From: a virus
Virus record (IMG/VR): IMGVR_UViG_3300005518_000016
Span: 1-64,000 of that record
Reading direction: 5' to 3' (one strand)
Length of the DNA: 64,000 bases
Part shown: positions 5,515-63,023 of the stretch, piece after piece
Layout of the letters: every line of letters begins with the position of its first letter
How positions within the stretch are numbered: position 1 is the stretch's first letter
Position numbers and translations under genes: made by a program
The notes under the pieces: model-generated
The model's input: only the letters and a program-made list of their open reading frames with translations
Database searches by the model: none
Told to the model about the DNA's origin: nothing

Positions 5515-5702
5515 TGCCCTTCGGCTTCTACAAGACTCCGGCGATGATGGGCAGCGCCTCGAAGCCCAAGGCGCCAGCGGCTCCCAAGGCCCCTGCGGCC
5601 GATCGCTCCAGCCCCACCGCTGTCGAGCGTCCGATCGGCGACTACGACCCGCGACGGGCCAAGAGACAAATGAGCCGTCCGATCTTCGGGAGCCGCCGCT
5701 AG
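5514..5702 (+). CDS. Tiny basic protein, 62 aa (fourth of five)
   Basis: Starts MPFGFYKTPAMMG, then a Lys/Pro/Ala stretch, and ends MSRPIFGSRR. Coupled upstream by TGATG; its TAG stop directly abuts the next ATG. Low-complexity and basic. Function unknown. Confidence 0.5.
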   Translation: MPFGFYKTPAMMGSASKPKAPAAPKAPAADRSSPTAVERPIGDYDPRRAKRQMSRPIFGSRR

Positions 5703-29714: not shown

Positions 29715-29868
29715 GGGGGTCCTCAAATGGCAGTAGTAGTTGTACCGGACACGTTGGACAGAAGGCCGCCTGCTCACCGGTCGCCCACAGGAACGCACAG
29801 CCGCAGGGGTACTGGAGGATCCACTCCAGAGCCAGCCAGTCCGTGACGCGGTGACTCACCTTGATCAT
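29698..29868 (-). CDS. Mini zinc-binding protein, 56 aa
   Basis: From ATG 29868 (ATGA overlap with the polymerase stop). CGC at residues 22-24 and CPTC at 37-40 make a four-cysteine metal site around the strand AFLWATGEQAAF. One of a dozen such short zinc proteins here. Placed directly after the polymerase, so it may be expressed at the same level. Confidence 0.6.
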   Translation of the reverse strand: MIKVSHRVTDWLALEWILQYPCGCAFLWATGEQAAFCPTCPVQLLLPFEDPRDQIC

Positions 29869-32800
29869 GCCACCGTCCCCATTTCCTCGAAGTCCTCTTG
29901 GTCGATCTCCTCGACCGGCCAACTCTCACCCTCCGTCCCCACCTCCGCAAACAGCGGCAGCGCCAGCCCCTCGGTGTCCTTCCAGTTCTTCCCCACCTTG
30001 GCATCGGCACCGATGGCCAGGTACTCTCCCATCCCCCACTCTGCCGGCAATGGCTGCTCCAGAATCGGCCGCTGCATCTCCCGGGCGACCGCCTCGACCA
30101 CCCGGTCCCACATTCTATCTGGCACCTCCAGCAGCAGGGAGTCATGGATGGGGGCCCGCAGCGGAGTCCTGCCGAAGTAGCAGTCCCCGATATAGGAGGG
30201 GTGATCCGGGTGGGCAAAGAGCATCCGCATGGCCCGCTTGAGCACCCCCGCCGCGATGGATTGAGGTCCCCACGCGATCACCCGCTTGGCGTCCTCGCCA
30301 CGGTCGACGGCGAACCACCGGCCCCCGATCTCCACCGACACCCGCCGCCGCTTCTCCCGCCACTGCCGCTGCTTCTCACTGATGGGTTTGTAGGCCAGCA
30401 CCGACCAGAACCAGTGTCGATATTGGAAGGGGTGGTTGAACGGGGTGGTGTCCAGAAACTCCCCTCGACCATTCCGCTTGTAGCAGTCGACCGTCGGGGC
30501 CATCATCGCCGGCCCGGGTCCCCCTAAATATCCTGCGTCGTAGGCCCGCTGCTGGACCGCGTAGTGGAAGGTGGGGAGGTTGGGGAAGAGGCTGTAGATC
30601 AGGTCCACGATCTTCTGGGCGTCGGCCTGATCCTTGTAAATATCCGGGAAGGTCTCGGCCATCCCGAAGGCGGTGAGGCCGTAGTTGATCCCGTTGTTGG
30701 CCCGCTTGGTCTTGTCGTAAATCAGGACATTCTGGGGGTCGTGCTTGACCTCCCGGAGGTACGCCCCGAGGTCTTCATCGCTCCATCTGAGGTCGGCGGG
30801 GCGCTTGAGCAGATGACTCGTGATGTATGCGTGAGCCCCCAGTCGCGCGAGGCGGAGATAGTGAGGGTCACGAATGAGCCAGCCGACCTCAGTCGGCTCG
30901 GCACTCGCAAAATCCACTTCCAGAAGACGGCATCCGGGACCGGCCACCACGCACCGTCGGAATCCCGCAGCCAGACTCTGCTTCCCCGTCTTGTCGGCGA
31001 CGATGTTGGTGATGTTGGGTGCGACATAGCTCAACCTCCCCATGGATGGGCGGAAGGTGACGATCGGGTGGATGCGCGGTTCCCGCCCGGCCTCCACTTC
31101 CTGTGCCACCTTCCGGATGGTGGGCACGGCATAGGTACTATCCACCTTTTTCACCGCCCGGTAATCGAGGAGAGACTTGTAGAAGGGATCTCTGGTGGTC
31201 TTCCAGAGCCGGAGCAGGGTATCTCGATTGGCGGAGTCCTTGTGGGTGTGCTTATCTTTACCGGGCTTGTGGCCCCGGTATTTCAGGTAGGCCAAGACTT
31301 GGGGCGCTGAGTCCGGGTTGAAGGGTTCCTGCCAGAACCATCTGGGGATCTCCACCTCCCGGATCTCCAGCCTCGCTTCGACCCCCTTCAGCGGCTTGCC
31401 ATCGGGTCCCTTGCACCGGTGCTTGGTGTGGACCTCCATCTGTCCACAGGCCGAGCAGCAGCTGATGATCCGCTTCACCACCCTTTCCACACGCGTCGCC
31501 GACAGGGCGAAGAGGTCCTGCTTCAGCGGATCTGGCTGTGCCGCAAGGGGCTCCCCGGTACGAAGGTTGGTTGTCCTCGCCGCAGGATGAAGCACGCCGG
31601 CTTGCGGAGGGCGACTGGTCTCTCCGGTGAGCGGGCGGAGCTCGTCGGGGACATGTGCCTGGAGCTCATGGAGGAGCCGGCGCTGCTTCACCGCCAGATC
31701 CTCGTGGAACCTATCTAACTCCGGCCGATCGATCAGGATCCCGACATCCTGCGCCGGCTTGAGGACGTTATGGTAGAGCTGGTGGCAGTCCTCGAGGAAG
31801 GCCCGCCACTGCCCCTGCTGGATCAGGTCGCCGATGATGCCGTAGCCACAGCGTTGAGTCTGGGGGCCGTCGATGCAGGCGTACTTGGCCGGGTCGGTCT
31901 CGGAGAGGTGCTTCCATGCCCCGTAGCGGCTGTAGAAGGGGGCCCAGAAGCCAAGCCCCAAGGGGACATCCGATTGGAGGATGTGCGCCGCCACCATGAG
32001 ATCGATCTGCCAGCCCCAGGCCGGCTGCGCCCCGCGGGCGGCAATCCTCGCCCAGTCGTAGCCGTAGCCGTTCCACCAGTAGTGCCAACAGGCGAGCGCC
32101 AACAGTTGTTGAATGTAGGGCCAGTACGCCGGGTCGTCCGGCACGGTGATCCCTTGATCGGGGTGGCAGCTGAAGTTCCACCGGAGGATCTGGTAGCTCT
32201 GGTCGTCCGGGGTCAGCTCATTCTCCGGCTTGCCGCCGGCCTTGTCCGGGGTCTCGACGTCGCAACTGAGGGCGACCCCGTCCGGGTCCTGGGTGGCCGC
32301 GGCGACGACCTGCGCGGTCCACGCGGCAAACCAGTCTGTTGGGGGGTCAATAACCAGGTCGATCGGCTCAGGTCGCCACTGTCCCCGTGCCAGCTCCAAG
32401 GCCACCTGGAGGTCGAAGCTGACGGTCCCAATGAGATTGGTGGCCCCCCGCTGTAGGAAAGAGGGATGGAACGTCGGGACGATCCAATGGTGATCACCAG
32501 GGTCACGGTGCACGGTGCCATGGAATTCCTCGACCCGGATGCGCGAGTGGCCATGGAGGTGGAGGAGGGTTTTGATTGGGGTGGCGCCCATCGCCAGGAT
32601 CACCTGGTGGCCCTCGGCCAGCAGGGGGTCCCGGTGCACGGCGCAGTGGTCGATGGCCGAGAATTCGTAGGGGGCGTTGTGCAGCTCGAGGCCAGGGGGG
32701 CAGCATTGGAGGATATTCCCCACCCTAAATTGTTGCCGGGTGAGCCCGTTGCGCCGGAGGATGCGCTCGAGCATGGAGCCGGCGGCGCCGACGAAGGGGC

Positions 32801-32963
32801 GGCCGATCTCAACCTCGGAGTAGCCTGGGGCCTCGCCGACCATGGCGAGGGGGGCGTTGGCAGGGCCGTCGGGGGGGACGAAGCCATGACCCCTCTCGTA
32901 GAGGCTGCAATTTTTACACGCCGCAGGTTTGCGGTTGAGGGGGGCCTTGGGCTGACTAGGCAC
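29865..32963 (-). CDS. Uracil-DNA glycosylase / 3'-5' exonuclease / family A DNA polymerase fusion
   Basis: 1032 aa from GTG 32963. Residues 15-220 form a family 4/5-type UDG: ACKNCSLYERG, VGEAPG, GRPFVGAAGSML, NILQCCPPG, HCAVH, a late THPS-like FHPSFL, and four cysteines able to hold an iron-sulphur cluster. Next comes an exonuclease with DxE (CDVETPD), NGYGYD and YACID. An inserted Cys/His cluster follows (SCCSACGQMEVHTKHRCKG). The polymerase has motif A LLEVDFASAEPTEVGWL, motif B KRANNGINYGLTAFG and motif C PIHDSLLLEV. It should replicate phage DNA; the glycosylase domain may sense uracil in the template. Confidence 0.92.
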   Translation of the reverse strand: MPSQPKAPLNRKPAACKNCSLYERGHGFVPPDGPANAPLAMVGEAPGYSEVEIGRPFVGAAGSMLERILRRNGLTRQQFRVGNILQCCPPGLELHNAPYEFSAIDHCAVHRDPLLAEGHQVILAMGATPIKTLLHLHGHSRIRVEEFHGTVHRDPGDHHWIVPTFHPSFLQRGATNLIGTVSFDLQVALELARGQWRPEPIDLVIDPPTDWFAAWTAQVVAAATQDPDGVALSCDVETPDKAGGKPENELTPDDQSYQILRWNFSCHPDQGITVPDDPAYWPYIQQLLALACWHYWWNGYGYDWARIAARGAQPAWGWQIDLMVAAHILQSDVPLGLGFWAPFYSRYGAWKHLSETDPAKYACIDGPQTQRCGYGIIGDLIQQGQWRAFLEDCHQLYHNVLKPAQDVGILIDRPELDRFHEDLAVKQRRLLHELQAHVPDELRPLTGETSRPPQAGVLHPAARTTNLRTGEPLAAQPDPLKQDLFALSATRVERVVKRIISCCSACGQMEVHTKHRCKGPDGKPLKGVEARLEIREVEIPRWFWQEPFNPDSAPQVLAYLKYRGHKPGKDKHTHKDSANRDTLLRLWKTTRDPFYKSLLDYRAVKKVDSTYAVPTIRKVAQEVEAGREPRIHPIVTFRPSMGRLSYVAPNITNIVADKTGKQSLAAGFRRCVVAGPGCRLLEVDFASAEPTEVGWLIRDPHYLRLARLGAHAYITSHLLKRPADLRWSDEDLGAYLREVKHDPQNVLIYDKTKRANNGINYGLTAFGMAETFPDIYKDQADAQKIVDLIYSLFPNLPTFHYAVQQRAYDAGYLGGPGPAMMAPTVDCYKRNGRGEFLDTTPFNHPFQYRHWFWSVLAYKPISEKQRQWREKRRRVSVEIGGRWFAVDRGEDAKRVIAWGPQSIAAGVLKRAMRMLFAHPDHPSYIGDCYFGRTPLRAPIHDSLLLEVPDRMWDRVVEAVAREMQRPILEQPLPAEWGMGEYLAIGADAKVGKNWKDTEGLALPLFAEVGTEGESWPVEEIDQEDFEEMGTVA
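32936..32962 (-). repeat. Duplicated translation-start sequence, polymerase copy
   Basis: 27 bases, 26 identical, also present at 33153-33179. Both copies encode PSQPKAPL immediately after the start codon of two consecutive genes. Here the start is GTG and the upstream gene stops inside the repeat (TAG, created by the single mismatch). Confidence 0.75.
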
Positions 32964-33180
32964 GACGTCCCTCTGCGGGATCAGCCACCGTGAGCCGACT
33001 GACTGCGAGGACACGCACCTGCGGCCACCAGCCACTCGGGAGGCGTACGCGGGCCCAGCGTCCCTCTGGGGCTACCGCTTCGACGGTGACCCAGATCCGT
33101 CGGGCCAGCTCGCCGGGCTTCCGGTCCCAGAACGTCGCGGTCGCGCCGACGGTGAGGGGGGCCTTGGGCTGACTCGGCAT
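32956..33180 (-). CDS. Hypothetical protein, 74 aa, upstream of the polymerase
   Basis: From ATG 33180: PSQPKAPLTVGATATFWDRK, then RRIWVTVEAVAPEGRWARVR and a closing SRLTVADPAEGRRA. A small beta-barrel-like fold (SH3- or KOW-like strand pattern) seems likely. The first nine codons duplicate those of the polymerase gene. Stop overlaps the polymerase start by 8 bases, so the two are translationally coupled. Confidence 0.65.
   Translation of the reverse strand: MPSQPKAPLTVGATATFWDRKPGELARRIWVTVEAVAPEGRWARVRLPSGWWPQVRVLAVSRLTVADPAEGRRA
33153..33179 (-). repeat. Duplicated translation-start sequence, first copy
   Basis: Partner of the 32936-32962 copy, 217 bases apart in direct orientation. Recombination between them would delete the 74-aa gene and leave the polymerase with a normal ATG start. 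Confidence 0.75.
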
Positions 33181-42329: not shown

Positions 42330-43732
42330 AGCCACCCCTTGACTTTGTCTTCTACTCCGCACCGTCCCAAGAAGGCCCGCTCCGTCCCGACCACCCTCAA
42401 TCCCTCGAGGGATCGGCACCGGCTCAGGGCCACGTACATCATGCTCGGCCTCGCCATGAACCCGTCGGTGATCGCCACCTGCACCTGATCTAAAGATAAT
42501 CCTTGGCTCTTATGTACGGTCGTACTGTACGCGAGGCGGAGCGGCACGTAGGTCACCACCCCCTTCACCGTGTAGGGGGGCTTTCTCTTCCCCGTCGGCT
42601 CCCGCCACTCTTTAATGGCGGGAGTCACCACGACGTCCTGCAGGGTCCGGTGGAGATACACCTTCACCCCGCCGCTCGTCGGATCCGGCCCGAGCACCGT
42701 CCCCAGGTCCCCATTGACATACTCAAAGACCCTCCGGTCCCCGGTATCAAGTTGGGGGTAGGGCTTGTTGGCGAGGATCATCACCAGCGCCCCCTCCTTC
42801 AGCTTGAGGACCTCGGGGATCAGGCGGATCCAGTCCTTCTGCTGCTGGCCGGAGCGGGTCGTGAGGCAGGTGAATTCCTTGCCCTTGAGCCGCATGTAGC
42901 GGAGGTTGTTGACCCGGTCGACGGCGTCGTTCTTGGGCACGATGGTGGTGCCGGGGAAGTCGAGATCCAGCTTCTCTACGAAGGTCGGTCTGAGTGTGGG
43001 CAGCGCCTCGCCGGCCTGCCCGCGCCGCACGGCCTGCAGCGCCTGGATGTAGCCGGGGTCACCCTGCCGGCGAATGGTGGTCAGCCTGAAGGTGTGCTCG
43101 GCGAACCGGCTCCAGGCCCCACCCTCGAAGGCAAACGCCCCATCCACGGGGGGGAGCTGGGCGAAGTCCCCGACCAGGATCAGCTGGAGGATGCCCGCGT
43201 CCCTCGCCTCGAGCGTCACCAGTCCCTGGTCCTCATCGTAGGCCTTCGTGAGGTTGATCTCGTCCAGGCAGGTGCAGAGGATATCTAATTGGTCGGCCTC
43301 CATCATGGAGATCTCATCAAGGACGATCCGGCGATACCCAGACTTCCTCAGCATCCGCAGCTTGTAGGCGAGGAACCCGCTGGCGTAGTGCTCCATCAGC
43401 GATTTGGTGTCGAAGTAGCTGAGGAGACTATTAATGGTGGTGGCGTCGCCCAGGTTCACCGCAGCGATCCCGGTCGTGGCGCAGAGGAGGGATCGATCCG
43501 CCTCGAGCTCCACGATCTTTCTGGCGAGGAAAGTTTTACCGGTGCCGGCGGGGCCGGAGAGGTAGGCAAAGGGCTGGGCGAGGAGATCCTCGGCGGCCAC
43601 CTCAGCCGCGGGCGCCTCCACCGCCGGTACCTGTACTGTACTAGTACCTGTACTGTACGTACTAGTACTAGGGGTACTGGGTACAGCAGCGCCGCAGGCA
43701 TCGGGGAAGAGGTCCTCGAAGGATTTAGGCAT
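42326..43732 (-). CDS. Pif1/RecD-like SF1B helicase
   Basis: 468 aa from ATG 43732. Walker A is YLSGPAGTGKTFLARKI, Walker B RIVLDEISMMEADQ, then LILVGDFAQLPPVDG (motif III), TVHKSQGLSLDQV and MYVALSRCRSLEGLRV (motifs V and VI). A 5'-3' DNA helicase for replication or recombination. Residues 20-50 are a Ser/Thr linker encoded entirely by a GTAC-rich repeat array, which is unusual. It sits in the middle of the sugar-modification genes. Confidence 0.92.
   Translation of the reverse strand: MPKSFEDLFPDACGAAVPSTPSTSTYSTGTSTVQVPAVEAPAAEVAAEDLLAQPFAYLSGPAGTGKTFLARKIVELEADRSLLCATTGIAAVNLGDATTINSLLSYFDTKSLMEHYASGFLAYKLRMLRKSGYRRIVLDEISMMEADQLDILCTCLDEINLTKAYDEDQGLVTLEARDAGILQLILVGDFAQLPPVDGAFAFEGGAWSRFAEHTFRLTTIRRQGDPGYIQALQAVRRGQAGEALPTLRPTFVEKLDLDFPGTTIVPKNDAVDRVNNLRYMRLKGKEFTCLTTRSGQQQKDWIRLIPEVLKLKEGALVMILANKPYPQLDTGDRRVFEYVNGDLGTVLGPDPTSGGVKVYLHRTLQDVVVTPAIKEWREPTGKRKPPYTVKGVVTYVPLRLAYSTTVHKSQGLSLDQVQVAITDGFMARPSMMYVALSRCRSLEGLRVVGTERAFLGRCGVEDKVKGWL
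43627..43684. repeat. GTAC-rich repeat array inside the helicase gene
   Basis: Ten GTAC tetramers in 58 bases, including a 12-base direct repeat CCTGTACTGTAC at 43630 and 43647 and the 19-base sequence GTACTAGTACTAGGGGTAC at 43659-43677, which recurs exactly at 46966-46984. It encodes a low-complexity Ser/Thr linker. A GCCTGCGGCGC motif (complement) follows at 43689-43699. Confidence 0.8.
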
Positions 43733-46924: not shown

Positions 46925-46984
46925 GTACCCCTATGGTACGTACCCTCTGTACAGTACAGGGTACAGTACTAGTACTAGGGGTAC
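46925..46984. repeat. GTAC-rich repeat array, intergenic
   Basis: Nine GTAC tetramers in 60 bases in the 112-base gap between the possible ssDNA-binding gene and the H1-like gene. The last 19 bases are identical to a stretch inside the helicase gene. Several overlapping palindromes (GGTACGTACC, AGTACT, ACTAGT) could form small cruciforms or bind a dimeric protein. It is upstream of the H1-like gene, so a promoter or operator function is possible. Confidence 0.8.
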
Positions 46985-51420: not shown

Positions 51421-51983
51421 GCGATCCTCCGGTACGCCGCGTCGTACTCACGCTTGCAGGTTCGGCAGCGACGAGAAGATCCCTCAAAGCGAACGTTGGC
51501 CCCGCTCAGCAGATGTCCGTTCTTGCAGTGTGTAACCGGACCCTGCCGAACCGGGGTGTACACGGCACGGGCAGGAAGCCAGCCATGCTGGTAGATGCGC
51601 TCCCAGATTAGCTGGAGGGGTACACCGGTCAACTCGCTCCATTCGCACAGTAGGTGTGTCACCCCGTCGATCGTCAGAGGACGGAGGTTCGATTTGTTTC
51701 TGGCTTGTTCCTTCAGGGTGGCCCATCGCACGTTTCCGGGAACGTAGCTGCCGTTATAGTCAATACGATCAAGCGAGTGCGTTGGCGAGGGACGACGACC
51801 CATATCGGCAAGGAAGCATTCGTACTGCATCCACCGGAGGCACACGCCTATCCCTCGTCCACCATAGCGGGGAAACAACCGATTCCGGGGATTAGTACAC
51901 CGGTTCACCATCCCTCCCCAGATGCGATATTCCGCACTGGGGCGAGGACCACCGGCGGACTCACCGTGTCGGCGCTGCGTCAT
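51417..51983 (-). CDS. HNH homing endonuclease with NUMOD-like and zinc domains
   Basis: 188 aa. EYRIWGGMVNRCTNPRNRLF, RYGGRGIGVCLRWM, DMGRRPSPTHSLDRIDYNGS and NVRWATLKEQARNK are the HNH part; RPLTIDGVTHLLCEWSELTG is a NUMOD-type DNA-binding helix unit; the end (CKNGHLLSGANVRFEGS, RRCRTCKREY) is the same zinc module as in the 47.7 kb HNH gene. It is fitted between two genes with four-base overlaps on each side, so it has become part of the operon. Confidence 0.88.
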   Translation of the reverse strand: MTQRRHGESAGGPRPSAEYRIWGGMVNRCTNPRNRLFPRYGGRGIGVCLRWMQYECFLADMGRRPSPTHSLDRIDYNGSYVPGNVRWATLKEQARNKSNLRPLTIDGVTHLLCEWSELTGVPLQLIWERIYQHGWLPARAVYTPVRQGPVTHCKNGHLLSGANVRFEGSSRRCRTCKREYDAAYRRIA

Positions 51984-53509
51984 TCCAATTCCTCAGAAGT
52001 AACGCCCATTCCCTCGGCAGGAATCGGGATACCTCGCTCCTGCATTTGCAATAGTTCCGGAGCGTGATGTGGACGACGGAGGATGTACTTCCCGCTTCCT
52101 ATGGGTTGATCCCACCCCTCCCTCCGGAAACATACGTCTTCAAACTGACAGGCGTACTTCAGCCCGAACCTCCGACATTCATAGGAACGGGGGAAGTGCC
52201 GCTGCAGCAGGGACTGAAATCTCGGGTCGGGCCAGACCACCTCCCACCAGGCTGCGGCGCTATCCACCCCCTCGGCGATCGTGGAGGGACCCCCATCTCC
52301 GGGATAGGCCTCGCCGAGGATCGTCTGCCCCAGCTCGTACAGTTCCCACAGTCCCTGCTGGATCCGTCCCTCCTCCCCCTGACACTCCTCCAGGAATCCA
52401 GGGACCATGATCTCCTGTCTGGAGTAAGGCCCCAGGAGGACCAGCTGCTTCCGCCGCACCTCGCTCGGCAGCCACTTGGCCCAGTACTCCGCCTTGGACT
52501 CGACCTCTGGGGTCAAGACACCGTCAGGAAGTTCCCAGATCGGCGCCTTCTTCCAGACCTTACCCAGCCGCCGGTTCACCACCTGCCCGCTCTTCTCGTC
52601 CAGCTCCTGCCACTGGTACTGCGCCGCCCACTCCTCCCGTTCCATCGGGGGGTTGGCCGGCTTGCGGTAGGCGTAGCAGAAGATCGAATTCTGCCGGTCG
52701 GGGCCCACATCATATTTCCCGCTCTCGGGGTTGTACTCCTGCCCGCGCTTCCCTTTCAGGAGCCCATGGACATAGATCGACTGGATCGGTTTCCCGTACC
52801 GCCGCTCGGCGTCGAGGGTGGCGGCAAACATCTGGATCATCACTTCCCACTTATCCCTGAAGGAGGGGCCGTCCTGCCCGGTGCCCTTGAATTCGTGGTA
52901 CTCGAGCTCCCTGGTCTCCCAGGTCTCGAGGATGAAGTCGGGTTTGCACATCCACCCGATGCCGTGGCAATCGCGGGCCTCGTGATCGGCCTTGGACCCC
53001 ACCCCGTCGCTGAGCCCGCAGGTACACCCAAATACGTAGGTGTCGTCATGCTCCACTTCGAGGATCCGACCGCGACGCAGGACCTCCGGGAGGACTTCGA
53101 GAATCCACGCCCAAGTGAGCCCTTCGATCAAGTAGTTCTGCTCGGTGAGGAGCTGCTGGATCGCCGGCTGGTCGGCCATGTAGGCGAAGCCTCTCGCGGC
53201 CACCTGCTGGTAGTAGGCGGATTGGGCGGACTGGATCGCCCCGCGGACCACCACGCTCGGCACGCAGGGACTGTTGAGGAGATGCCCCTCGGTATCTTCT
53301 ATGGACTGGAGGTGATCCTGACACCACTCCAAGACCGTAGCCAGCGCGGCGTGATAGGCCGTGCCGGTCGCCAGGGGGAATCTGGTCCCCTTCATCTGGA
53401 TCCCATAGCCGTGCGGGCCGATGTGGTAGTTCAACACCCGCGAGTGCAGGCAGAAGCCACGGCCGTCGGCGACGCGGGAGCGGTCGATGAGCCAGAGGAT
53501 GCTACTCAT
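51980..53509 (-). CDS. PD-(D/E)XK nuclease, RecB/Cas4-like
   Basis: 509 aa. Catalytic core MCKPDFILETWETRELEYHE then FKGTG gives the D...E-x-K arrangement of PD-(D/E)XK nucleases. Near the C-terminus CRRFGLKYACQFEDVCF supplies three cysteines, and another (GCTCGLSD, residues 160-167) lies earlier, a pattern compatible with the iron-sulphur cluster of AddB/Cas4-type nucleases. Probably resects DNA for recombination together with the P-loop ATPase. Overlaps the upstream gene by eight bases. Confidence 0.78.
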   Translation of the reverse strand: MSSILWLIDRSRVADGRGFCLHSRVLNYHIGPHGYGIQMKGTRFPLATGTAYHAALATVLEWCQDHLQSIEDTEGHLLNSPCVPSVVVRGAIQSAQSAYYQQVAARGFAYMADQPAIQQLLTEQNYLIEGLTWAWILEVLPEVLRRGRILEVEHDDTYVFGCTCGLSDGVGSKADHEARDCHGIGWMCKPDFILETWETRELEYHEFKGTGQDGPSFRDKWEVMIQMFAATLDAERRYGKPIQSIYVHGLLKGKRGQEYNPESGKYDVGPDRQNSIFCYAYRKPANPPMEREEWAAQYQWQELDEKSGQVVNRRLGKVWKKAPIWELPDGVLTPEVESKAEYWAKWLPSEVRRKQLVLLGPYSRQEIMVPGFLEECQGEEGRIQQGLWELYELGQTILGEAYPGDGGPSTIAEGVDSAAAWWEVVWPDPRFQSLLQRHFPRSYECRRFGLKYACQFEDVCFRREGWDQPIGSGKYILRRPHHAPELLQMQERGIPIPAEGMGVTSEELE

Positions 53510-55278: not shown

Positions 55279-56253
55279 ATGGTCAAGATCGTACGGCAGG
55301 ACCCGTCAGCAAGTCAAGCCCCCTTCCCAGATCCCCTCCCCGGCATCATTTCTTTCGGCAGTATCAACCTCCTGGCCGGCGCCAGCGGGGTCGGCAAGAC
55401 CTGCCTGACGGCATGGCTGCTCACCAGATTCAGGGACGGCACACCGATCTTCGGGCGGACTCCGAATATCCCGGCCAAGATCGCCTACCTCAGTGCCGAC
55501 CGCGGATGGGCGTCGACACGGGTGTGGCTGGACCGTGTCGGGTACGGCGATCTCGCCTTCTACTCCCTGACCGACGATGCCAACTTCGCCCTGAATAAAC
55601 TCGAGAACGTCAACAACCGGCGGGCGTCCGCGCGCACGGCGGTCCTGCGCGATTGCTTGGAGCAGCTCGGGCTCATTCCCAACTCGCTCGTGGTGATCGA
55701 TCCCATTGCCCTCTTCCTCGGGGGCGATCTGAACAACTACGACACCTGCGCGATTGCCTTGATTGGGATTCGGCGCCTGTGCCGGGAATTCGGGATCACG
55801 ATCATCGGCTTGGCACACGCCAGCAAGCAGAAGGCGGACAAACGGGATCAATATAAACGGTTGCAGGACCGGATTCTCGGGTCAGCCGCCCAGCACGGGT
55901 ACGGTGACACTCAGATGTACCTTGCCTCCCCGGAAGAGACCGGGAAGCAGACCTATACATTCCTCTGGCATCCCCACTTGTCGGAGGCTCAGACCTTCGC
56001 GCTTGAACGCGATCCCAAAACGGGTCTCTTCCTCAGCACCTATGACGCAGACCATCCGTTTACGGAGAACGAGGAGCGGATACTGGCGTCCATTGACAAC
56101 ACCCCGGAGGGTACGGCCTATGGTGCCATTCTCAAGGCCTGTTCCCCCCCTATGGACGAGAACCAGGTCTACCGGTGTACGCGGGACCTCCTCCACGCCG
56201 GGTGGCTCCTCCAGCCGAAACACGGGCGGTACCGGAGGGCGAAAGTCAACTGA
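55279..56253 (+). CDS. RepA-like hexameric ATPase / replicative helicase
   Basis: 324 aa. NLLAGASGVGKTCLTAWLLT is Walker A, RTPNIPAKIAYLSADRG and SLVVIDPIALFLGGDLNNYD (Walker B) follow the AAA_25/RepA pattern, then FGITIIGLAHASKQK as the sensor strand. The C-terminal 70 residues (NEERILASIDNTPEGTAYGA, NQVYRCTRDLLHAGWL) are a winged helix for DNA binding. RepA-type proteins load at iterons and unwind origins, and a repeat field lies immediately downstream. No DnaB or primase gene was found. Confidence 0.85.
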   Translation: MVKIVRQDPSASQAPFPDPLPGIISFGSINLLAGASGVGKTCLTAWLLTRFRDGTPIFGRTPNIPAKIAYLSADRGWASTRVWLDRVGYGDLAFYSLTDDANFALNKLENVNNRRASARTAVLRDCLEQLGLIPNSLVVIDPIALFLGGDLNNYDTCAIALIGIRRLCREFGITIIGLAHASKQKADKRDQYKRLQDRILGSAAQHGYGDTQMYLASPEETGKQTYTFLWHPHLSEAQTFALERDPKTGLFLSTYDADHPFTENEERILASIDNTPEGTAYGAILKACSPPMDENQVYRCTRDLLHAGWLLQPKHGRYRRAKVN

Positions 56254-56559
56254 CAATCCACCTCAGCCTTGACTCTGACCTGCTCGTAGGGGGGGTGAGA
56301 TTTGGGGGACTCTGTGGCCTAAGTACCTGTACCAGTACCTATTTAGTACTGATTTAAAGAGCGTGAGATTTGGGTGAGATTTGGGTGAGAGAGCGTGAGA
56401 TTTGGGTGAGATCTCGCGCCAATCTCACGGAAATCTCAAACCTCTAACCCTAATGGACACCGTAGGATACGCTGAAAAATGGCAAATCTCACTCGCGCGT
56501 GTACGCGACCCCCCTCTCTATAGAAGCTCAACCGTAGACTTTCGCTTTGGAGGTGCCTG
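56254..56559. other. Putative replication origin with iterons
   Basis: 306 non-coding bases, less GC-rich than the rest. GTGAGATTTGGG occurs exactly at 56295, 56363, 56374 and 56395, with a partial copy at 56406. Inverted copies are CCAATCTCAC (56419), GAAATCTCA (56430) and CAAATCTCAC (56483). Between the first two iterons lies a short GTAC cluster (56323-56349, four copies) and the AT-rich ATTTAGTACTGATTTAAAGA. Placement directly behind a RepA-like gene is classic for theta-type origins. Promoter signals for the next gene could also lie here. Confidence 0.65.
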
Positions 56560-56730
56560 ATGCCAACTCCCAATTCAGCCCCGCCCACGCCCCCACGTGT
56601 GAACTGGTACGACATCGCTGGCCTACCCCCCGTGGAACTCTTTGAGATCCTCCGGGAGGAGGGGTACACCACGGAGGAGATCCTCGCCATTGCGGCGTTT
56701 GCCATTGCCGAGGCTATTGCCAACAAATGA
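56560..56730 (+). CDS. Small protein, 56 aa, downstream of the origin
   Basis: ATG 56560 has TTGGAGGTGCCTG upstream. MPTPNSAPPTPPRVNWYDIA then LPPVELFEILREEGYTTEEI and a hydrophobic helix (AIAAFAIAEAIANK). The middle looks like a short helix pair for protein binding. Not previously known to me. Confidence 0.6.
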   Translation: MPTPNSAPPTPPRVNWYDIAGLPPVELFEILREEGYTTEEILAIAAFAIAEAIANK

Positions 56731-59595: not shown

Positions 59596-59654
59596 GTACT
59601 GGGGTGTACCCACTAGGGTACGTACACCTAGGGTGTACGTACCGTACTAGGTAC
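59596..59654. repeat. GTAC-rich repeat array, intergenic
   Basis: Eight GTAC tetramers in 59 bases between two minus-strand genes, with palindromic TGTAC/GTACA pairs and GTACTAGGTAC related to the 43.66 and 46.97 kb copies. It fills the 110-base gap upstream of the 39-aa gene, so it may carry regulatory sites or have inserted there. Confidence 0.75.
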
Positions 59655-61383: not shown

Positions 61384-62553
61384 CTACACCGTCACCAGGG
61401 CGGCGCCCCGCTTCAACACAGCGGCGGCCAGCTGATCCAGCTGCAGCCGCTCATCCTGCCATCCGCTCTCCTGACTGTTCCGCGTGAGTCCCTGCGCGAG
61501 TCCCCAGAAGCTCCGCGGTGATGCCTGCTCCTTGATCTCGCAGGTCGCGTAGGCGTCCGTTGCCTGTTCCTTGGTGGCGCCCATCTTCTTGAGCTCATCG
61601 ATCACGGCCTCTTTCGTGTGGGCGATCTCGTGGTCGATCAACCCTCGGATGATCCGCTCATCGTCGCTGGCGGCGCGGCGGGTCCACTTCCACGCGAGGG
61701 TGTTGAGTTCCGCCATGGTGTCGCGGGTGATCCGGGCGCCCACATGCCGGCGGCGGAAGGTGCGATCGATCATCGCACCCCAGAGGCAGTGATTGCCGCA
61801 GATGTAGCGGTAGAGAACCGTCTCGATGGTGATCGAGCAGTGGCCGACTTCGGAATTCCTGAGCATGATCCCCCTGAACATCGCGCCCGCTTCGGTGCTG
61901 CCGTCGGTGCTCGTCTGTCTGGTGCTGCCGTTGCGGAGGGTGGGGTCCGTGACAATGGATCCGCCGTTCACGAGGATCAAAAAGCTATCCCGGTCACCCC
62001 GATACGCCCCCGCCGGCTTGCCGTCCCACGTGGGCGGCAGGGTGTACCCGGTGCCAGGGTTGAAGTGTCGCAGCGTCTCGCCGAACAACTGGCCATCCCA
62101 GACGCGGCCGTACGTCTCGCTGGTGCACGCCCGAATGACCGGCGTCCCACCGTTGGCTTTGACCAGTAGGTTCGCGGTCGTCCCTACCGGTGCGGCCTCG
62201 TGGAGTCCGTGATTCAGGTTCGCGGCGGCGAGCTCCGGCGGCAGGGTCCGGAGGTAGGATGCGGGCGCGCCAATGGTTCGTGCGAGCTGGCCAAAGGCGT
62301 AATGGGTGAGGGTGGCATTCCCGGTTGGGCTCTGCAGCCTGAGTTCCTTCCCGGGGCAGTCGCCTGGCTGGCCGATCTTGAGTTGCGGCGCATCGACGAC
62401 AACGGCCTCCAGGTCTCGCAGGTTGTACACCCTCTCTGCCGAGTGGGTGCGGTCGTACTCGGCTGCGTCGACCAGGGCGGCGACGGTGGGGTATCTCTCG
62501 TCTGCCGGCCGTTTGTAGTACTCACTCTGGGCTGTGGTGATGGTTCGTTCCAT
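61384..62553 (-). CDS. DUF932-like phage/plasmid protein
   Basis: 389 aa from ATG 62553 with GGAG nine bases upstream. PTGNATLTHYAFGQLARTIG, PASYLRTLPPELAAANLNHG, KANGGTPVIRACTSETYGRV, FGETLRHFNPGTGYTLPPTW and FRGIMLRNSEVGHCSITIET match the DUF932 family found in phages and plasmids, usually near SSB or recombination genes; biochemical function not established. The conserved ICGNHCLWG stretch is present. It is the first gene of the second minus-strand unit. Confidence 0.78.
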   Translation of the reverse strand: MERTITTAQSEYYKRPADERYPTVAALVDAAEYDRTHSAERVYNLRDLEAVVVDAPQLKIGQPGDCPGKELRLQSPTGNATLTHYAFGQLARTIGAPASYLRTLPPELAAANLNHGLHEAAPVGTTANLLVKANGGTPVIRACTSETYGRVWDGQLFGETLRHFNPGTGYTLPPTWDGKPAGAYRGDRDSFLILVNGGSIVTDPTLRNGSTRQTSTDGSTEAGAMFRGIMLRNSEVGHCSITIETVLYRYICGNHCLWGAMIDRTFRRRHVGARITRDTMAELNTLAWKWTRRAASDDERIIRGLIDHEIAHTKEAVIDELKKMGATKEQATDAYATCEIKEQASPRSFWGLAQGLTRNSQESGWQDERLQLDQLAAAVLKRGAALVTV

Positions 62554-63023
62554 GGTGCCTATCTCCATCGAAGGGCTACGGCTACCGTGGCCGGCGGGAT
62601 TGCCGGGGTCCGGAGTCGTGGCGTCCTGGGGTGCCTGCGGCGCGACTGCTGGCCGACGATGCCCTCTGGTCCAGAGGGTACAGGTCGCAGGGTCAGCGGA
62701 GGTCACGGGGGGTGTACCGGCTGCTCCCGGTTCGCACCCGCACCCACCCTGCCCCTGCCGTCCTGACACGTCGCGCACCCGGCTACTCCATCATAGGTGC
62801 CTAGTGGTTGTCAACCCTCTCCGCCTGCAGGCCTATCAACCCTCCCTCGCCTGCGCCGGATGCCCCGTGCCGCGGGCGCGTGCGATTCCCCTTGACTTCC
62901 CCCCCTGGCCTGTGGTTGGCGTGATGGGTCATTGTGCGCGGGCCCCCCTGGGGGTGGTCGGGCGCGTGCTGGGTGTGACAGCCCCTTTTTATTTTTGTGT
63001 CCCCCTCTGCTAGGCTGGCCTCG
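62554..63023. promoter_or_regulatory. Divergent non-coding region, 470 bases
   Basis: No convincing gene. It separates the leftward DUF932 unit from the rightward small genes. A GCCTGCGGCGC motif lies at 62633. On the minus strand TTGACA is seen near 62815-62810, but the matching TATGAT is only 13 bases away. At 62986-62996 the plus strand has a T-rich TTTTTATTTTT element, and TAGGCT (63011-63016) ends 7 bases before ATG 63024 with a weak TTTATT box 17 bases upstream. Confidence 0.5.

Follow-up and report, generated by a model that had tools for sequence, protein, structure and literature searches.

The non-coding stretch at positions 56254-56559 of a tailed-phage genome is probably the replication origin of this phage, with an iteron array that is recognised by the ATPase whose gene lies immediately 5' to the stretch. 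The window, i.e. the whole stretch of DNA that was analysed, comprises positions 1-64,000 of a virus record of 71,076 bp, in which terminase, major head protein, family-A DNA polymerase and Dda-like helicase genes were recognised. Most genes between 29 and 63 kb are on the minus strand; on the plus strand the ATPase gene (55279-56253) stands as an island together with a small ORF at 56560. The DNA polymerase gene (29865-33035, minus strand) is a single ORF of 1056 residues with an N-terminal uracil-DNA-glycosylase domain. A DUF932-like conserved protein (phrog_1362) is encoded at 61384-62778 on the minus strand and is found in many related contigs (22 loci). A search of phage records for nucleotide relatives and a search of plasmids for protein relatives were both negative, and the single distant match from genome contigs was left out of the analysis.

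Anatomy of the repeat array

Four exact copies of GTGAGATTTGGG are located on the plus strand at 56295, 56363, 56374 and 56395 and are the sole exact copies in the record. Six copies of the octamer TGAGATTT are present in the 71 kb, each of them within 56296-56491, and an unbiased k-mer scan ranked the array as the top repeat cluster of the record, with a -log10 p of 18.0 vs 8.5 for the runner-up. The repeats are real and non-random. The left outer iteron 1 (56295-56306, plus strand) faces inward. Between it and the inner cluster lies an AT-rich, GTAC-containing stretch (56307-56362, plus strand), inside or beside the most AT-rich 100 bp of the record, which is a candidate unwinding element. 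There follow on the plus strand iteron 2 (56363-56374), iteron 3 (56374-56385), which starts 11 bp after iteron 2 and overlaps it by one base in a head-to-tail arrangement, the partial iteron GTGAGAG (56385-56391), iteron 4 (56395-56406) and the partial iteron GTGAGAT (56406-56412). The inverted iterons GTGAGATTGGCG (56417-56428) and TGAGATTT (56431-56438) are on the minus strand, as is the right outer iteron GTGAGATTTGCC (56481-56492), which again faces inward. The original prediction, which had described the four repeats, the head-to-tail pair, the three inverted partial copies and an AT-richer non-coding location, is borne out on all these points: the array is situated between the ATPase stop codon at 56253 and the small ORF, and 56313-56412 is the most AT-rich 100-bp window of the record. 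An Rfam search for an RNA element at the array gave no match.

The array is bracketed by the only two copies of GCGAAAGTC in the 71-kb record. The left boundary element (56239-56247, plus strand) overlaps the 3' end of the ATPase coding sequence and the right one (56537-56545) is on the minus strand. An 8-mer of GCGAAAGTC is present in 11 of 17 arrays of the family, against a background of 1% per block, and GCGAAAGT brackets or borders arrays across the relatives. At the array borders of relatives GCGAAAGTC is kept, whereas the iterons diverge.

The GTAC cluster to which the original prediction drew attention exists (four copies, 56323-56350), and GTAC recurs in the arrays of the family, but as an origin-specific mark it was rejected because denser clusters are found elsewhere in the record. 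Those at 43627-43681, 46925-46981 and 59596-59651 in the early region of the window contain 8-10 copies per ~55 bp, often interspersed with CTAG; one is close to where the Dda-like helicase gene begins and seems to fall within coding DNA. Relatives also have GTAC clusters, as exemplified by the relative G002 at 121 and 69421. The GC-skew inflection near 56.4 kb that had been proposed as a check is absent, skew being a weak test where the gene strands of a phage switch.

The ATPase and its C-terminal domain

The gene at 55279-56253 (plus strand) encodes a protein of 324 residues with a RecA/DnaB fold and a C-terminal winged helix, the proposed initiator. Its earlier description as RepA-like proved correct, with a match to PF13481 above the cut-off (E=2e-20) and an AlphaFold model that matches the RecA-family ATPases DnaB, RadA and RSF1010 RepA (1g8y, 1nlf, 1olo). 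The protein also resembles the helicase part of phage primase-helicases. The ATPase core starts near residue 18, carries the Walker A and B motifs and has G34, G39, K40 and D141 invariant among 25 ATPase sequences; all 25 family members scanned matched AAA_25. In Pfam scans of the ATPase the AAA_25 core was the sole domain, with no match to the DUF927 and D5 helicase families, to a primase domain or to the N-terminal domain of DnaB, so that the domain plan differs from that of DnaB.

The C-terminal winged-helix domain, the proposed reader of the iterons, extends over residues ~262-320 (56062-56238, plus strand). It was modelled with a pLDDT of 85 in the order H-H-H-E-E and matches winged-helix folds; the corresponding domains of relatives match Pfam HTH families. 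The predicted recognition helix, residues 294-306 (56158-56196, plus strand), contains Tyr298. TAL-effector matches in a PDB profile search, none with a passing stretch, were ignored as artefacts.

Arrays in related phages

The contig of the first relative, L007, was found via the neighbouring gene at 51980-53509. It encodes an ATPase with 53% identity, and the array downstream of the gene is built from another repeat, GTGGAACTTTGG. Alignment searches yielded 33 and then 22 loci, the first set comprising 25 distinct loci with the window included. In total, a homologous ATPase with an AAA_25 core and a C-terminal winged helix is encoded at about 30 related phage loci, and nearly all of these loci have a similar array, either directly 3' of the ATPase gene or 0.8-2.2 kb beyond it, the latter in seven loci (L059, L063, L079, L082, L084, L086 and L089). 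The strongest repeat block is directly 3' of the ATPase gene in 13 of 26 distinct loci, where about one would be expected, and the AT-richest 100 bp falls in the array in 15 of 26 (0.7 expected). Loci L008-L015 were retrieved with the pattern GTGAGATTTNNGTGAGATTT, and most of them resemble chance matches. In L009, an unrelated viral contig with no relative of the ATPase, three GTGAGATTTAGG repeats occur at 5520-5553 in steps of 11 and 22 bp.

Most lineages have a repeat of their own (TGAGAT, TGGAAC, TGAGAC, TGAGCC, TGACCC, TGTCCA, TGCCAC, TGCACT and others), yet a TG-first core of ~6 bp is common to them, and in L058 and L086 the same context, TTAGGTGCCAAAG, stands beside different cores. Since an EM motif search gave poor motifs, the cores were listed as exact matches instead; the limits of the arrays were set by us with the sequences already seen. 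The arrays follow a common plan of an outer iteron, 40-70 bp that are often AT-rich with GTAC, an inner cluster of several ~11-bp steps, and a second outer iteron. In 21 of 29 loci the array opens with a plus-strand core, and in 21 of 29 it closes with a minus-strand core.

Covariation of the recognition helix with the iterons

The position after T-[LIV] in the recognition helix, residue 298, predicts base 5 of the iteron core: Tyr, Phe or Ala is paired with A, and Lys, Gln or His with C, in all 27 proteins retained when the cores are read in the TG-first frame. This pattern was first spotted post hoc, from the listed cores. Three divergent loci were left out of the tests, namely L073, which is without a clear iteron, L081, in which TTACAAAGT accompanies Asp outside the TG pattern, and L078, which contradicts the rule with an aligned Phe and TGAACA. 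Among all alignment columns, with close relatives excluded, residue 298 was the best predictor of base 5. It predicted 17 of 18 representatives, a number reached by none of 300 shuffles even with their best column, although shuffling ignores relatedness. In a tree that excludes the winged helix, residue 298 and base 5 each switch four times and do so on shared branches; four independent switches are too few for significance in a formal independent-pairs test. We chose the TG frame and, for palindrome-like cores such as TGTCCA and TGCCAC, the orientation; in an alternative core frame the covariation is 16 of 18, with family-wise support of 11 in 200 shuffles. A weaker association of residue 295 with bases 3 and 4 is not significant over all columns. 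Predictions were made in advance for six new loci, of which five were testable. All five fit and are counted in the 27; four are close kin of loci already seen, and L092 (Lys, TGCACT) is the exception.

Protein and repeats change together across about 30 related phages, which points to the ATPase itself as the reader of the repeats. The conserved position of the array, a divergence matched to the recognition helix and the AT-rich element tie the array to the ATPase. These comparative ties strongly support the assignment of the iterons to the neighbouring RepA/DnaB-like ATPase. That part of the original prediction stands, and the function as an origin is what we infer from it.

Proposed mechanism and alternatives

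Copies of the ATPase would dock via their C-terminal winged helices on the TGAGATTTGG iterons, which in the inner cluster follow each other at intervals of roughly one helical turn, with one outer iteron facing inward at either end. The RecA/DnaB-like core may then assemble as a ring around the adjacent AT-rich DNA and open it, which would give the phage family-A polymerase and the Dda-like helicase access and allow replication to start.

Covariation in binding alone cannot separate an origin from an operator. By binding the array, the ATPase might regulate the transcription of nearby genes or of its own gene, with the origin elsewhere; its winged helix is similar to the domains of transcription factors such as IclR, MarR and Fur, and the small ORF begins 3' of the array. 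The position of the array, its AT-richness and the helicase fold make this reading less likely. The array is found 3' of the gene for the ATPase rather than at its promoter, it coincides with the AT-richest DNA, and the fold is that of helicases and recombinases. Moreover, each genome has a single array, and a search for sigma-70-like promoters within the array of the window found none. An operator is thus an unlikely explanation.

It is improbable, too, that the stretch is an origin at which a different protein, of the phage or the host, binds the iterons and the ATPase is recruited as helicase or loader. IncQ plasmids divide the roles of binder and helicase in this way, as between RepC and RepA of RSF1010, and many phages have an initiator distinct from the helicase. 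Two observations speak against a separate binder: iteron base 5 is best predicted by residue 298 of the ATPase, and an informal look at the loci examined revealed no other gene fixed beside the arrays. A DNA-packaging, recombination or partition site is very improbable: the clustered inverted repeats can fold (z=-4.6 as single-stranded DNA), but the terminase gene is ~12 kb away, at 68.5 kb, no ParA or ParB was among the proteins scanned, and array and ATPase remain together even in divergent phages.

An origin recognised by the adjacent ATPase remains the preferred reading. We tentatively extend it to a family of tailed phages with a self-recruiting initiator, composed of a DnaB/RepA-type ATPase and a winged helix, in which one residue of the recognition helix might set iteron base 5 and so give rise to dozens of natural, mutually distinct initiator-origin pairs. 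The preferred reading predicts the origin of a whole uncultured phage group from sequence alone, points to the initiator and to a residue on which its specificity may depend, and provides natural matched pairs for studying the co-evolution of initiators and origins. If the ATPase loads itself, a RecA/DnaB-fold ATPase joins the origin-binding initiator helicases, which to our knowledge have so far been mostly of other helicase families.

Comparison with known replication systems

In RSF1010, an IncQ plasmid, RepA, RepB and RepC are three separate polypeptides (PMC4234260). RSF1010 RepA has the same ATPase fold as the phage ATPase. RepC binds the iterons; RepA does not and is without a winged helix. 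The premise of the original prediction that RepA-like helicases act at iterons does not hold for this model, in which the binder is RepC. The phage ATPase differs in having a predicted DNA-binding domain of its own.

Parallels are also provided by proteins that combine helicase and origin binding. SaPI Rep origins are located directly downstream of the helicase gene and their iterons are recognised by the C-terminal part of Rep (PMC7581432), and PICI origins consist of an AT-rich region flanked by two sets of iterons (PMC6092414). The phage array, as a putative origin, is likewise immediately 3' of the ATPase gene; iteron sets surround the AT-rich region in the window, with a layout that varies across the family, and the ATPase would be an initiator helicase with C-terminal iteron recognition. 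The SaPI and PICI helicases, however, belong to DUF927 or D5/Primase_Cterm, whereas the protein described here is an AAA_25 ATPase of 70-kb tailed phages. In phage P4, the winged-helix domain of the alpha helicase protein binds the origin repeats (PMC4234260), a role that the C-terminal winged helix of the ATPase may share. P4 alpha combines a Toprim primase with the helicase, unlike the ATPase, which is without a primase domain. The plasmid pRN1 also has its origin 3' of the replication gene and a C-terminal winged helix in ORF904 (PMC4234260), as proposed for the array and the ATPase; the pRN1 origin is a stem-loop without iterons, and ORF904 is a primase-helicase. Because the protein family is different, the ATPase and its array are not a member of the SaPI/PICI or P4 systems. 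The best reading by analogy is that they are laid out like the SaPI/PICI and P4 origins, built on a different family of ATPases.
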